Assembly: GCA_002862545.1 (NCBI GenBank)
Contig: PKDJ01000129.1
Coordinates: forward strand, 1 to 45,906
Reading direction: 5' to 3'
Length of the DNA stretch: 45,906 nucleotides
Source of the DNA: Pseudomonadota bacterium
GTDB lineage: Bacteria; Myxococcota_A; UBA796; GCA-2862545
How positions within the stretch are numbered: the first letter of the stretch is position 1; every line of letters begins with the position of its first letter. A program made the position numbers and the translations under genes. Positions 1,601-35,327 of the stretch are shown piece by piece. The notes beneath the pieces were generated by a model, which saw only the letters and a program-made list of their open reading frames with translations, was not told the origin of the DNA and made no database searches.

Positions 1601-4600
1601 TCAGCGCCGTCGGCGGAAGGCGAGCATGCCGACGAGGCCGAGCCACCAGGCTCCAGCGGCCCCGCCGCTGCTGCAGGCGCAGCCCGAGGGGCCACTCTTC
1701 TTGGCGACCAGGCTCGGAAAACCGGTGTCCTGGACCACGTCGTCGGGGTCACGGGGGACCGAGGGGTCGGGGCGTCCGGTGTCGGTCACGGCCGTCTGCT
1801 GGGCCTCACCGTCGCAGTCCTCGTCGATGTCGTTGTCGAGGATCTCGTCGGCATCCGGATTCACGCTCGGGTCACCGTCGTCGCAGTCGTCACCGTTAGC
1901 GACCGTGCCGTCGGGCTGGGCGCAGTCGGTGACGAGGGACTCGGGGTCTCCGAAGCCGTCGCCGTCGTCGTCGAGCCACCAGTCGAGCTCCGCGAGGTCT
2001 TCGTCGATCTCGCCGTCGCAGTCGTCGTCCAGCGCGTTGCACTGCTCGTCGGCGCCGGGGAAGACGGCGTCATCGTCGTCGTTGCAGTCGTCTCCGGTGG
2101 AGACGTAGTCGTCGGGAGCGACGCAGGCCTCGAGGGGGTCTCCAGTGCCCACACCGTCGCCGTCGCCGTCCCTGTACCAGCTGCTCGCGTCGACGGGCAC
2201 ACCCTCGTCGGCGAGATCGTCACAGTCGTCGTCGAGGCCGTTGCAGAGCTCGTCGGCGTCCGGGAAGGCGTCGCTGCGTGCATCGTCGCAGTCGTCGGCG
2301 TTGTCGACGTAGCCGTCCGGGATCTCGCAGAAGCGCAGCGAGACCTCGGCGTCACCGTAGCCGTCGTCGTCGCTGTCTGCCCACGCGAGCAGACCATCGA
2401 CCGGGTCGTCGTCCGCGACGTCGTCGCAGTCGTCGTCGAGGCCGTTGCAGAGCTCGTCGGCCTCGGGGTTCACGCCCGCGTCGCCGTCGTCGCAGTCGCT
2501 CGCGTCGAGGACGTACCCAGGCACCTCTGCGCAGTCGATGACCGACACCTCGGCGTCTCCGAAGCCGTCACCGTCGGCGTCCGCGAACCACTCGACGTCG
2601 ACGAGGTCCTCGTCGACCACCATGTCGCAGTCGTTGTCCCGCTCGTCGCACAGCTCGGGAGCGCCCGGGTAGACGAGCGCGTCGTCGTCATCGCAGTCGT
2701 CATCTGAGGCCGCGAAGCCCTCGGGCAGGGCGCAGGCGAGGACGGTGACATCGGGGCGGCCGACGCCATCCCCGTCGGCGTCCAGGTAGAACTCTGCTCC
2801 GGTGTCGAGGTCCACGCTGTCGTCGTCGTCGTCGGTCAGGCCGTCGCAGTCGTCGTCGAGATCGTTGCAGACCTCGGGTGCGCCGGGGAAGACCTCGGCG
2901 CGGTCGTCGTCACAGTCACCGGGGATGCGAACGCCTCCATCCGGAGCGTCACAGCTCGCGGGGAGTGGAGCGTCGCCGAAGCCGTCACCGTCGGCGTCGA
3001 GCCACCAGGGTGTCTCTGGGCTCAGCTCCGGGTCGCTGTCGTCGCAGTCGAGCGGGTTGTCTGCGGTGCCGGGGGGCGCCTCGCAGGCGTCGACCGGGTC
3101 GGCCTCGCTGTCGCCGTAGCCGTCCCCATCGAGGTCGGCCCACCACGGGGTGGCTGCACCGACGGTGGGGTCGGCGTCGTCGCAGTCGTCGGCATTGAGG
3201 ACCGCGTCGGGCACGGGCTCACAGGAGAAGAAGGCCACCTCGGGGTCGCCGAGGCCGTCGCCGTCGAGGTCCGCGTACCAGGGGGTGTCGGGAGACACCT
3301 CGGGGTCGTCGGGGGCGCAGTCCCCCGCATCGGCGACGTAGCCATCGGGCGGACTGCAGGCCTCGACCGAGGCGTCGTCGTCGCCAAAGCCGTCTCCATC
3401 GGTGTCGGCGTACCAGGTCTGCAGGAGGGCGTAGTCGGGGTCGGAATCGTCGCAGTCGTCGGCGTTCGGCGCGTACCCGACGGGCTCGACGCAGGCGAGC
3501 AGCGGGTCGCCGAGCGGGTCGCCGTAGCCGTCGCCGTCGCCGTCCGGCCAGAAGGTGCCGACGCCGGCCACGTCAGGGTCGCTGTCGTCGCAGTCGTCCG
3601 CGTTGCGAACGTGCCGGTCGGGGGCCTCGCACTGCTCGAGGGAGCTGGCGGGATCGCCGAGTCCGTCGCCGTCGAGGTCGGCATACCAGAGGGTCTCGGG
3701 AGAGATCTCGCCGTCGTCTGGCTCACAGTCCAGGTCGTTCTCGACGTACCCCGGGGGCGGAGCGCAGGTGGTCTCGACATCTGCGGGATCGCCGTAGCCG
3801 TCCCCGTCGCTGTCGCCGTACCAGTCGCGAAGGAGCGCCAGCTCCGGGTCGGAGTCATCGCAGTCGTCGGTGTTGTCGACGCGGCCGGGGAGGGGGGTGC
3901 AGGAGAGCAGCGCCTCGGAGTCAGGGTCGCCGTAGGCGTCGCCGTCGGCGTCGACGTACCACTCACGCTCTGCGCCGATCTCCGGGGCCGAGTCGTCACA
4001 GTCGTCGGGATTGTCGGTCGCGCCCTCCGGAAGGAGGCAGGAGGCAATCGAGATGTCGGGGTCGCCGAAGCCGTCGCTGTCGGCATCGAGCCACCACCGC
4101 CGATCCGGATTGGTCAGCGGATCGTCGGGTGCGCAGTCGAGGTCGTTGTCGACGTAGCCGAGGGGCGGGGAGCACGCGGCCGTGGGGTCGTCGGGGTCGC
4201 CGTAGCCGTCGTCGTCGAGATCGGAGTACCAGTCGCGAATCTCGCCATAGGCGGCGTCGGAGGGGTCGCAGTCACCGCCGACTGCGGCGTAGCCATCCGG
4301 CATGTCGCAGGCGAAGAAGATGTCTGCGTCATCGCCGAGGCCGTCCCCGTCGAAGTCGGCGTACCACGCCGTCTCCTCGTTGATGTCGGGATCGCGGTCG
4401 TTGCAGTCGTCGCCGCGGCCGACGAAGCCCAGTGGCGGCTCGCAGCTCGCGATGACCACCGCCGGGCCGCCGTAGCCGTCACCGTCCTCGTCGGCGTACC
4501 ACAGGGACTCGGGCGAGATGTCGGGGTCGTCGGGCGCACAGTCGCTCGAGTCCGCGACGTAGCCCTCGGGCTGAACGCAGGCTGCCAGGCTGTCGTCGGG

Positions 4601-6793
4601 GTCGCCGTAGCCGTCCTCGTCTACGTCGGAGTACCACGTGACGAGCACGGCATAGTCGGGGTCGTCGGGGTCGCAGTCTCCGCCGATCGCGACGTAGTCG
4701 GCGGGGGCCTCGCAGGCGACGACCACGTCGGCGTCATCACCGACGCCGTCTCCGTCGCTGTCGCCGTACCAGGGCTGGGCAAGCCCGACAGCCGGGTCGC
4801 CGTCGTCGCAGTCCTCGGCATTGTCGACGTAGTCAGGGGGTGCGACGCAGGCGACGGTGCTGGTCAGGGCGTCGCCGAGTCCGTCTCCGTCTGCATCGAG
4901 GTACCAGGTGAGGCCGACGGAGCGGTCGGGGTCGTCGTCGAAGCAGTCCTCGTTGTTGTCGGCGTAGCCGTCCTCGCTGCAGGTCGGGACGGCGATGGCG
5001 TCGAAGGCGCCGAGGCCGTCACCGTCGGCGTCCACGTAGCGCAGCACCGCATCGATCACCGAGGCGTCGTCGTCGTCGATCAGGCCGTCGCAGTCTTCGT
5101 CTCCGCCGCCGCAGACCTCGTCCAGCAGGGGGCTGCGGAGGGCGTCGCTGTCGTCGCAGTCGTAGACGGCCGGCGAGCCGTCCCCGTCGAGGTCTTCCCA
5201 CAGTGCCGGGTCAGCGAAGGGGCCGCCGGCGAGGCCGACATCGTTGATCGTGCCGTCGAGGTCGTACAAGTCCTCAGCAACGAGGCCGCTATCGACCAAG
5301 GGGCCGTCCCAGATCGGGAGGTAGGCGGCCGGCGAGCAGAGGCCCGGAATGTATGACCAACCTGGGTCGCTGTCGTCGGAGCCCGGCCCCAGCGGTACGG
5401 TGGCGGAGCCCCCGAGGTTCAGCCAGTAGTGGTTCTGGGCGAGGCTGATCTCCGCATCACCGCCGTTCTCCTCGATGGCCCCGATGGCCGTGTGCCAGCC
5501 GAAGAAGCTGCTGTAGAGCTCGGCCTCGTTGGCATCGTCGATACCGTTTACCCACACCGAGCCGCCGGCCCTCGAGGCCTCGTTCGCGACGAAGACGCTG
5601 TTCGTGACGAGCGCGTAGGCGTCGAGCTCGAGGTGCAGAGCGCCGCCGTCGTCGTCGGCCTCGTTCTCCAGCAAGAGGCTGTTCGACAGCGTCACTTCAC
5701 TGGCTCGGACGTTCAGCACGCCGCCGTCTTGGTTGGTGTCGCCGGCGGCGGTGTTGAAGCACCAGGTGTTGCGCCGCAGGAAGGACTCGCCCTCCATGGT
5801 GTGCAGGTAGACCGCTCCGCCTCGGCGAGCCGAGTTGGACAGGAACTCAGTGTCGAAGACGTCGCAGGCCGCAGACTCGGTGCAGCGGATGGCCCCACCG
5901 AACTCGGCGGTGTTGCGCTCGAAGACCGAGGCCTCCACCTCGAGATCGGCACCCGCGATGGCCCCGATCGCCCCGCCACGGAGCTCGGCCTCGTTGTCTT
6001 CGAACAGGGAGCCCACGATGCTCACGGTGGCGCCGTCGACGAAGACACCGCCGCCGACGCCGTCACCGTCGAGCGCTTGGTTGCCGGAGAAGGTCGTCTC
6101 GGCGAGCTCGAAGTCGCCATCACCTGTGAGGTAGGCCCCGCCACCCAGCCCATTGTCCGACCCGCTCGAGACCGTGTTGCCGCTGAAGGAGCCGCCGGTC
6201 AGCGTGACCGAGCCGCCGTCGGTCGCGAGGAGCCCGCCGCCATACCAGGCCGTGTTGTCGGTGAAGGTGGTGTCGGTGAGCACGGCACTGCCGATGAAGA
6301 CGTAGAGTCCGCCCCCATTGACACCGTTGTTGTCTGTGAAGGAACAGTCGGTGAAGGTGGCGGCAGCAGCCTCGATGTCCACCCCCGAGCCGATGTCATC
6401 GTCACCAGGGACCCCACCGGTGAACTCGACGCGGGTGAAGGTGGCCTCCGTGCCCGAGAGCAGGCGGACCGCCGTGCGGTTGTCTGCCCCGTCGACCGTC
6501 AGGTCCTCGAACACGATTCCCGTCGAGCCGTCGGCGATGTAGACCGTCGCCGAGCCCACGCCGTCACGGATGATGGTCTCGCCGATGCCTGCGCCGCGCA
6601 GCGTGAGGTCTCGGGGGCCCTCGATGTTGACGTCTTCGGTCCACACGCCCTCTGCGATCAGGATGACATCGCCGTCTGAGGCGGCGTCGATGGCGTCGGG
6701 GATGCTGGTGTACGGGCCGGATTCGCTGACCGTGAGCTCGGCAGCGAGGGCCACGTGGGGGACGGCTAGTGTCAGGAGGAGGCGTCGGTGCAT
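1601..6793 (-). CDS. Very large secreted protein: signal peptide, right-handed beta-helix region, then tandem MopE-type Cys/Asp-rich repeats and a MYXO-CTERM tail
   Basis: N-term MHRRLLLTLAVPHVALAAELTVSESGPYTSIPDAIDAASDGDVILIAEG; repeated GG-rich NxAxxGGA strands; many DxDGDGYGDP....C..P.GYV....DCDD units; C-term GCACSSGGAAGAWWLGLVGMLAFRRRR. GGAG SD precedes the ATG. Confidence 0.9.
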   Translation of the reverse strand: MHRRLLLTLAVPHVALAAELTVSESGPYTSIPDAIDAASDGDVILIAEGVWTEDVNIEGPRDLTLRGAGIGETIIRDGVGSATVYIADGSTGIVFEDLTVDGADNRTAVRLLSGTEATFTRVEFTGGVPGDDDIGSGVDIEAAAATFTDCSFTDNNGVNGGGLYVFIGSAVLTDTTFTDNTAWYGGGLLATDGGSVTLTGGSFSGNTVSSGSDNGLGGGAYLTGDGDFELAETTFSGNQALDGDGVGGGVFVDGATVSIVGSLFEDNEAELRGGAIGAIAGADLEVEASVFERNTAEFGGAIRCTESAACDVFDTEFLSNSARRGGAVYLHTMEGESFLRRNTWCFNTAAGDTNQDGGVLNVRASEVTLSNSLLLENEADDDGGALHLELDAYALVTNSVFVANEASRAGGSVWVNGIDDANEAELYSSFFGWHTAIGAIEENGGDAEISLAQNHYWLNLGGSATVPLGPGSDDSDPGWSYIPGLCSPAAYLPIWDGPLVDSGLVAEDLYDLDGTINDVGLAGGPFADPALWEDLDGDGSPAVYDCDDSDALRSPLLDEVCGGGDEDCDGLIDDDDASVIDAVLRYVDADGDGLGAFDAIAVPTCSEDGYADNNEDCFDDDPDRSVGLTWYLDADGDGLGDALTSTVACVAPPDYVDNAEDCDDGDPAVGLAQPWYGDSDGDGVGDDADVVVACEAPADYVAIGGDCDPDDPDYAVLVTWYSDVDEDGYGDPDDSLAACVQPEGYVADSSDCAPDDPDISPESLWYADEDGDGYGGPAVVIASCEPPLGFVGRGDDCNDRDPDINEETAWYADFDGDGLGDDADIFFACDMPDGYAAVGGDCDPSDAAYGEIRDWYSDLDDDGYGDPDDPTAACSPPLGYVDNDLDCAPDDPLTNPDRRWWLDADSDGFGDPDISIASCLLPEGATDNPDDCDDSAPEIGAEREWYVDADGDAYGDPDSEALLSCTPLPGRVDNTDDCDDSDPELALLRDWYGDSDGDGYGDPADVETTCAPPPGYVENDLDCEPDDGEISPETLWYADLDGDGLGDPASSLEQCEAPDRHVRNADDCDDSDPDVAGVGTFWPDGDGDGYGDPLGDPLLACVEPVGYAPNADDCDDSDPDYALLQTWYADTDGDGFGDDDASVEACSPPDGYVADAGDCAPDDPEVSPDTPWYADLDGDGLGDPEVAFFSCEPVPDAVLNADDCDDADPTVGAATPWWADLDGDGYGDSEADPVDACEAPPGTADNPLDCDDSDPELSPETPWWLDADGDGFGDAPLPASCDAPDGGVRIPGDCDDDRAEVFPGAPEVCNDLDDDCDGLTDDDDDSVDLDTGAEFYLDADGDGVGRPDVTVLACALPEGFAASDDDCDDDDALVYPGAPELCDERDNDCDMVVDEDLVDVEWFADADGDGFGDAEVSVIDCAEVPGYVLDASDCDDGDAGVNPEADELCNGLDDDCDDVADDDPVDGLLAWADSDDDGYGDAEVSLRFCEIPDGYVDNADDCDDARSDAFPDADELCNGLDDDCDDLADEGVPVDASSWYRDGDGDGVGTGDPLEACVAPDDYVSTGDDCNDDDDAVFPGADEQCNALDDDCDGEIDEDLAELDWWLDDDGDGFGDPESLVTDCAQPDGTVANGDDCDDGDPSVNPDADEILDNDIDEDCDGEAQQTAVTDTGRPDPSVPRDPDDVVQDTGFPSLVAKKSGPSGCACSSGGAAGAWWLGLVGMLAFRRRR
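2918..4948 (-). repeat. Array of 15 short (44-46 aa, about 135 bp) MopE-like units, measured DC-to-DC, within the giant protein
   Basis: Manual unit count: eleven 45-aa, three 46-aa and one 44-aa unit = 677 aa = 2031 bp, matching the coordinates exactly. Confidence 0.88.
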
Positions 6794-33983: not shown

Positions 33984-35327
33984 ATGCGCATGTTTCGACG
34001 TGGGCTCGGTCTGCTCGTCGTCAGCGGTCTGTTCATGGTGCAGACCGCGTGCCTGGAGGGCTTCGAGCGACTGGTGACGACCGTTCGGTACGACCCCTTC
34101 GAGCACCGCTTCGAGGTGCAGCGCACGCTCGAGAACGTCGATCCGCTCTTCTTTGGCTGCGGCGATGCGGCGGGCTGTGTCGAGGCCATGCAGCGCTCTC
34201 TATCGGGCGACACCGATCCGCTGGCGACACCGAGCCTCGGCGAGCGACTGGCTCGACGGCTCCTGGAGACGGGAGCGCTAGATGTCCAGGTCACCCTCAC
34301 GCGCGACGGTGATCGACTCGACATCGGTGCGACGTACACGGCCTCTCTGGGCACTCGGGCGGCCGAAGACACGATGATCCATGCCGAGTTCGAGGGACCG
34401 ACCGGTGACCGAGGGACGTACCGTCTCGTGGTCGCGGCGCAGGAGGGTATGCAGACTCCTGGTCTTCGCTACACGGTCCGCAAGCAGAGCACCTCGGGCG
34501 CAGCAGGAGTGGACTGGCGGGAGTACTGGCTGCTGCCCCCGCGTCGCTACGAAGTGACGACGGTCTTGCCTGTCGACGAGGTGGAGACACCGATGTTCGC
34601 CTTGGTGGGGGGACTCGCCGAGGCACTCGAAGAGGCCGGCTGGCTTGGGTCTCCGATGACTCCGGGCGGAGCGCCAGAGGCGCCGGTCGTGGCCACGGCG
34701 CCTGCGGTCTCTCCTGAGCCGGTCGAGCCGGTCGAGCCAATCGAGCCGGTCGAGCCAATCGAGCCGGTCGATGAGCCCCTGGTCGCACCGGTCTCAGTCG
34801 ACGACGTTCCGGTGGCTGTGGTCGAGATGGACGTGCCTCCCGAGCCGGAGCCGGCGGAGATGTCGGAGCCAGAGGTCGCTCCCGAGCCTGCACCCCCGCC
34901 GCCCGTCGCGGCGCCCGCTCGGACCTCGCCGACGACTGCACTCTGGCCCGACCCCGACCCCGAGTCGCCTGCCAAGGTCTACCGGCACGAGGCGAGGATC
35001 ACGGGACCGATCACGCTCGCGGCCGCCGAGGCCACCGCGCAGCCTCTGCTGCCATTGGTCCAGGTCTGCTACCAGCGGAGGCAGGCCGAGCGCCCGGAGC
35101 TCGCGGGCTACGCCTTCCTCGGTGCCGTCATTCGAGGAGACGGCTTCATCGTCAGCACCTCTGTCTACGGCGAGGTGGAGGACCCCGCGCTGCTGCGCTG
35201 TCTCGAGAAGGTCGTCGAGGCCTGGCAGCCCCCCGCGCCGTCGCGCCCTGACGCCACGGGCGACGTCGTGCTCCCGTTCACCTTCCGTGTCGAGGAGCCA
35301 GAGAAGAAGCGACGCAAGCGTAAGTGA
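33984..35327 (+). CDS. Lipoprotein with AgmX/PglI-like C-terminal domain and EPVEPI repeat linker
   Basis: MRMFRRGLGLLVVSGLFMVQTACLEG; C-term LVQVCYQRRQAERPELAGYAFLGAVIRGDGFIVSTSVYGEVEDPALLRCLEKVVEAWQPP. The start may be 33990 (GGAGG spacing). Confidence 0.75.
   Translation: MRMFRRGLGLLVVSGLFMVQTACLEGFERLVTTVRYDPFEHRFEVQRTLENVDPLFFGCGDAAGCVEAMQRSLSGDTDPLATPSLGERLARRLLETGALDVQVTLTRDGDRLDIGATYTASLGTRAAEDTMIHAEFEGPTGDRGTYRLVVAAQEGMQTPGLRYTVRKQSTSGAAGVDWREYWLLPPRRYEVTTVLPVDEVETPMFALVGGLAEALEEAGWLGSPMTPGGAPEAPVVATAPAVSPEPVEPVEPIEPVEPIEPVDEPLVAPVSVDDVPVAVVEMDVPPEPEPAEMSEPEVAPEPAPPPPVAAPARTSPTTALWPDPDPESPAKVYRHEARITGPITLAAAEATAQPLLPLVQVCYQRRQAERPELAGYAFLGAVIRGDGFIVSTSVYGEVEDPALLRCLEKVVEAWQPPAPSRPDATGDVVLPFTFRVEEPEKKRRKRK
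34716..34769 (+). repeat. Six 9-bp in-frame repeats (gagccggtc/gagccaatc)
   Basis: Order A A B A B A, encoding EPVEPVEPIEPVEPIEPV. Confidence 0.9.

Follow-up and report, generated by a model that had tools for sequence, protein, structure and literature searches.

Domain organization of the repeat protein

The window, that is the whole stretch of 45,906 nucleotides that was analyzed, belongs to a draft genome of 378 contigs. Its minus strand carries an open reading frame coding for a protein of 1730 amino acids, whose neighbors are a PmbA/TldD-type gene and a penicillin-amidase gene. From the N- to the C-terminus, the protein is composed of a signal peptide, a right-handed beta-helix (PF13229, best stretch aa 137-309), one long unit, 15 short units, several long PF11617 units and a C-terminal tail, located as follows:

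1601..6793, minus strand, whole gene, 1730 aa (ORF; Pfam PF13229 and PF11617)
4950..6793, minus strand, N-terminal part with signal peptide, right-handed beta-helix and first long unit (Pfam PF13229)
2918..4951, minus strand, array of the 15 short units, aa 615-1292 (678 aa)
1981..2917, minus strand, MopE-type long units (66-72 aa), C-terminal of the short array (PF11617 matches and spacing)
1601..1684, minus strand, MYXO-CTERM-like sorting tail, GCACSSGG-hydrophobic-RRRR (TIGR03901, 17.5 bits)

The array ends at 2918, as given in the initial annotation, and starts at 4951 rather than 4948 due to a unit cut that differs by one residue. The score of the tail lies below the TIGR03901 cut-off of 20, and the Cys signature, the hydrophobic stretch and the Arg cluster that are the hallmarks of MYXO-CTERM (PMC11980579) are all visible in it. 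A tail of this kind suggests an origin in Myxococcota, the uncultured source species being probably myxobacterial. The protein would be anchored and displayed at the surface, its array forming a rod-like structure. PF11617 is also abundant in the source genome (G000), with at least 150 matches spread over many proteins in 6.2 Mb. Elsewhere in the window, positions 34716-34771 hold a perfect 18-bp tandem repeat (TCGAGCCGGTCGAGCCAA, 2.7 copies).

The short unit is an acidic module with two cysteines

Twelve of the 15 short units count 45 aa, and units 8, 11 and 14 are, as initially annotated, the only ones of 46 aa. Their consensus is xDCDDxDPxxxxxxxWYxDxDGDGxGDPxxxxxACxxPxGYVxNx, in which D2, C3, D19, D21, D23, G26 and C35 are invariant in the alignment of all 15 units. 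With 163 Asp, 30 Cys (two per unit) and a single His, the array has a net charge of about -184. Judged by this motif, each unit of these acidic repeats probably binds calcium and forms a disulfide. A long unit looks like the short-unit core extended by some 22 residues belonging to the PF11617 motif.

Screening of the 678-aa short array with the Pfam and NCBIfam models matched no family; these collections contain no model for the acidic unit of 45 aa with two Cys, yet it forms arrays in several genera. A PDB sequence search returned nothing, and a search of a plasmid collection gave only weak Persicobacter matches. A three-unit fragment, modeled in AlphaFold2 with 44 other three-unit stretches, forms an ordered chain (pLDDT 95.4, pTM 0.75), for which Foldseek found no PDB match at E<=10 and no meaningful viral match. 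The AlphaFold2 model of eight units is too poor for measuring twist (pLDDT 47.5).

The short array has a period of three units

The initial annotation had proposed that the short units follow a period of three. We aligned all the units with each other (BLOSUM, 15x15 matrix) and obtained mean scores of 107, 102, 126, 98, 102 and 114 for lags 1 to 6. Lag 3 is the sole raised lag, so that the proposal survived the comparison named for it, namely that of lag 3 (126) with lags 1 and 2 (107 and 102). Permutation of the unit order gave, for lag 3, p=0.0005 for the score, p=0.014 for protein identity (51.7%) and p=0.023 for DNA identity (63.5%), values that are somewhat optimistic since the period was first picked out from the same sequence, and that come from a test of low power (15 units of 45 aa). 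The identity within classes minus that between classes gave p=0.0018 for period 3 and p>=0.17 for periods 2, 4, 5, 6 and 7. For 12 of the 15 units, the best partner lies at a multiple of three units (4.3 under the null, p=0.001), and for eight units it lies exactly three units away (p=0.0016). A maximum likelihood tree of the units, which has no strongly supported fork, shows 3 class changes for a minimum of 2; the mean after shuffling is 7.7, and a number as low was reached in 1 of 200 shuffles. The lag-3 maximum, the class-sorted tree and the position of the best partners all bear out the period.

The 46-aa units 8, 11 and 14 all fall in one class modulo 3 (chance p=0.066, or p=0.02 as a consecutive comb). 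The motifs described previously were found again by eye in the alignment: GDDAD(V/I)..AC is common to units 2 and 5, WYSD(V/L)D.DGYGDPDD to units 3 and 6, and.PDD to units 4, 7, 10 and 13, with SP(E/D)(S/T).WYAD in units 4, 10 and 13. Likewise, the 11-mer TCGGAGTACCA has exactly two copies in the window (0.02 expected), at 4221 and 4626, 405 bp apart. Unit 15 (LDC..SPET..WW) is out of phase and groups with class 1, and the period, at first described as regular over all 15 units, is thus clean for units 1/2-14, or about 4.3 blocks:

4412..4816, minus strand, block 1, units 2-4 (classes 2, 0 and 1) (period tests)
4007..4411, minus strand, block 2, units 5-7, unit 5 pairing with 2 and unit 6 with 3 (period and nearest-partner tests)
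3599..4006, minus strand, block 3, units 8-10, unit 8 having 46 aa (period and nearest-partner tests)
3191..3598, minus strand, block 4, units 11-13, unit 11 having 46 aa and unit 13 pairing with 10 (period and nearest-partner tests)
2918..3190, minus strand, end of the period, unit 14 (46 aa, class 2) and unit 15 (class-1-like) (tree, nearest partners)

Blocks 1 and 2 therefore pair at two class positions (2-5 and 3-6), and blocks 3 and 4 at one (10-13).

The period is carried by the linker and at the protein level

Within the unit, the signal sits in the DC-to-W linker, the 15 residues that precede each Asp-rich loop (z 4.5 for lags 3, 6, 9 and 12). The loop before the second Cys gave a weak period signal (z 2.2), and the same per-segment test detected no period-three signal in the Asp loop and in the segment after the second Cys. 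The linker comb reaches 41, 40, 39 and 38 at lags 3, 6, 9 and 12 versus 31 expected, and a gentle fall of this kind with distance is what stepwise copying predicts.

At the DNA level, lag 3 exceeds the mean identity by only some 2.5 points, and neither the use of identical codons (p=0.8) nor the third codon positions show a lag-3 excess. The best adjacent block pair of the array shares 69% DNA identity, and the maximum between any two short units is about 73%. Since the DNA excess is small and codon identity is flat at lag 3, block duplication is not visible here as DNA. Such an absence at the synonymous level is expected for old events, so it lowers the certainty of a block origin and remains compatible with it. 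Either old blocks have left their trace in the linker only, or the linker pattern is held by selection.

Blocks of several sizes occur in related arrays

The survey included 92 arrays, each with 8 units or more, taken from related members of the order as well as other genomes, the units being cut with an HMM of the unit core. The best lag was significant at p<=0.005 in 25 of the 92 arrays, and it was lag 1 in 14 of them, lag 3 in seven, lag 2 in two, and lags 4 and 6 in one array each, indicating that block size is variable. Three is the commonest of the multi-unit periods (7/11), in a sample that leans towards the relatives of a period-3 array, which served as bait in one survey search. When the 92 arrays are pooled, lag 3 is not above lag 2.

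Three-unit blocks were found in G007:C506 (L042) and G001:C19 (L090), where the best adjacent pairs share 87% and 85% DNA identity, respectively, and every segment carries signal. In L090 (G001:C19:31000-48500), 38 units of the long type, each about 68 aa in length, form a three-unit super-repeat that stands out very clearly (lag-3 z 7.9), and the classes have motifs of their own, such as NPGRTEVCNSIDDDCDGDIDG in one of them. Two other long-unit arrays have four-unit blocks (L217, G013:C23:72000-80000; z 6.7, best adjacent pair 81% DNA) and six-unit blocks (L183, G001:C18:119500-131500; best adjacent pair 89% DNA). Two-unit super-repeats were observed in Bacteroidota, in a Flavobacterium MAG (L049) and in Neolewinella xylanilytica (L047), the latter with a strict long/short alternation, two blocks that share 92% DNA identity and one pair at 97%.

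The linker-only period test detected no period in the homologous short arrays L032, L036, L037, L043 and L046. Its lack in these arrays from other genera makes the period look like something that happened to this gene rather than a general property of the fold. In G009:C37, a collinear homologue from another genus, the layout is the same and the short units number about 6 versus 16, a difference that is not divisible by three.

A universal three-fold structural period is disfavored by the pooled lags and by the five negative short arrays. Tests for a phase shared by period-3 arrays from different proteins gave some low p-values, but we set these aside, since shuffling of units yields too narrow a null if class members are near copies; a tree of two G001 arrays gave no resolution. 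In-frame TGA codons are present in related arrays at G043:C111:149682-150659 (two) and G013:C29:23171-24475 (one), possibly due to decayed genes or assembly errors. Arrays also occur in MAG records titled Klebsiella pneumoniae (L086) and Chryseobacterium gleum (L058), organism names that look doubtful.

Origin of the three-unit period

The pattern is real, the process is of a known kind, and the event is old. The period likely results from in-frame duplication of three-unit segments in the past, combined with at least one single-unit change. Long ago, a three-unit segment of about 405 bp would have been duplicated in tandem and in frame, through slippage during replication or unequal recombination involving similar units, giving rise to much of the array, and one or more single-unit changes would have occurred at its distal end. 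The copies would later have diverged to synonymous saturation, so that all that remains of the block history is a similarity at the protein level, found chiefly in the linkers that separate the Asp loops. For this gene we infer the duplication events, and the block copies of two, three, four and six units in relatives (92, 87, 81 and 89% DNA identity) offer a supporting likeness. Growth by three-unit blocks, as put forward in the initial annotation, is thus favored by the period, the tree, the 46-aa marker and the relatives' blocks, and weakened by the DNA level and the linker-only signal. Its corollary, blocks rather than single units, agrees with the period of three and was too strict, as single-unit events seem also to have occurred, judged by the phase of unit 15 and by the number of short units in G009:C37.

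Another explanation could be that selection keeps three alternating linker types, either because three units make one superhelix turn or because like neighbors misfold. Such a constraint would fit a signal that lies mostly in the linker, at the protein level only, and hardly decays with distance, as well as the ordered chain modeled for three units and the prevalence of three among the multi-unit periods. However, pooling the arrays gives lag 3 no advantage over lag 2, periods of 2, 4 and 6 occur, homologous short arrays have no linker period and the eight-unit model gives no usable twist, so we consider selection rather unlikely as the cause. It also seems unlikely that every third linker of the acidic rod faces the same way, in which case geometry would set both block length and linker type and period three would recur in unrelated arrays of the lineage.

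Growth by single-unit duplication, the period being a chance arrangement of similar units, would account for the phase of unit 15 and has parallels in the relatives, where lag-1 structure is frequent (14 of the 25 significant arrays). We nevertheless find it improbable, since lag 1 is not raised in the 15-unit array, several statistics gave permutation p-values of 0.0005-0.002, and the other periods (2, 4-7) are far from matching it, even with p-values that are somewhat optimistic. Finally, collapsed or mis-joined repeats in the metagenome assembly are hardly credible despite the fragmented draft, as the frame is open throughout and reads should resolve units that share about 73% DNA identity at most.

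Comparison with known repeat systems

The best-documented cases of repeat domains duplicated in blocks are eukaryotic. By their repeated D.D.DG.GD loops with Cys, the short units presumably resemble the calcium repeats of thrombospondin type 3; unlike those, the short array has no Pfam TSP_3 match, and no PDB fold match was obtained. The Cu-binding_MopE proteins (PF11617) are similar in that PF11617 units occur in the same protein and that a short unit is approximately a long unit minus PGA.E.CDG.DNDCDG.DE, but the 678-aa short array has no match above the gathering score, whereas the flanking long units do match. The copper site of MopE involves two His and a kynurenine, an oxidized Trp (PMC3423442), and with one His in 678 aa it cannot recur in the short array.

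The likeness to higher-order satellite arrays drawn in the initial annotation proved loose: satellite blocks are near-identical and homogenized, while the present copies are old and not homogenized, with 69% DNA identity at best. The A-band super-repeats of titin are a higher-order domain pattern tied to the thick filament (PMC10665226). In the present array, too, the types of domain follow a higher-order sequence along a long and presumably rod-like protein, although no comparable scaffold is known for it. Using lag-averaging of unit scores, Bjorklund et al. 2006 (PMC1553488) reported that domain repeats often expand by several domains at once, with sizes specific to each family, such as 7 in nebulin, 5 in cadherin, 4 in FN3 and 2 in LRR. 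Our test was of this kind, and in both cases the similarity autocorrelation peaks above one unit, several units having been, or in our case probably having been, duplicated inside the array; our case differs by a bacterial Asp/Cys repeat, a block of three, copies that are far more diverged and a signal confined to one segment. The arrays described here add a bacterial repeat family, with three as its most frequent block size above one. With scores of Asp/Cys arrays in the lineage, whose blocks of 1, 2, 3, 4 and 6 units differ in age and range from 92% DNA identity to saturation, it is practicable to ask by comparison whether block size is a matter of chance or is dictated by protein geometry.
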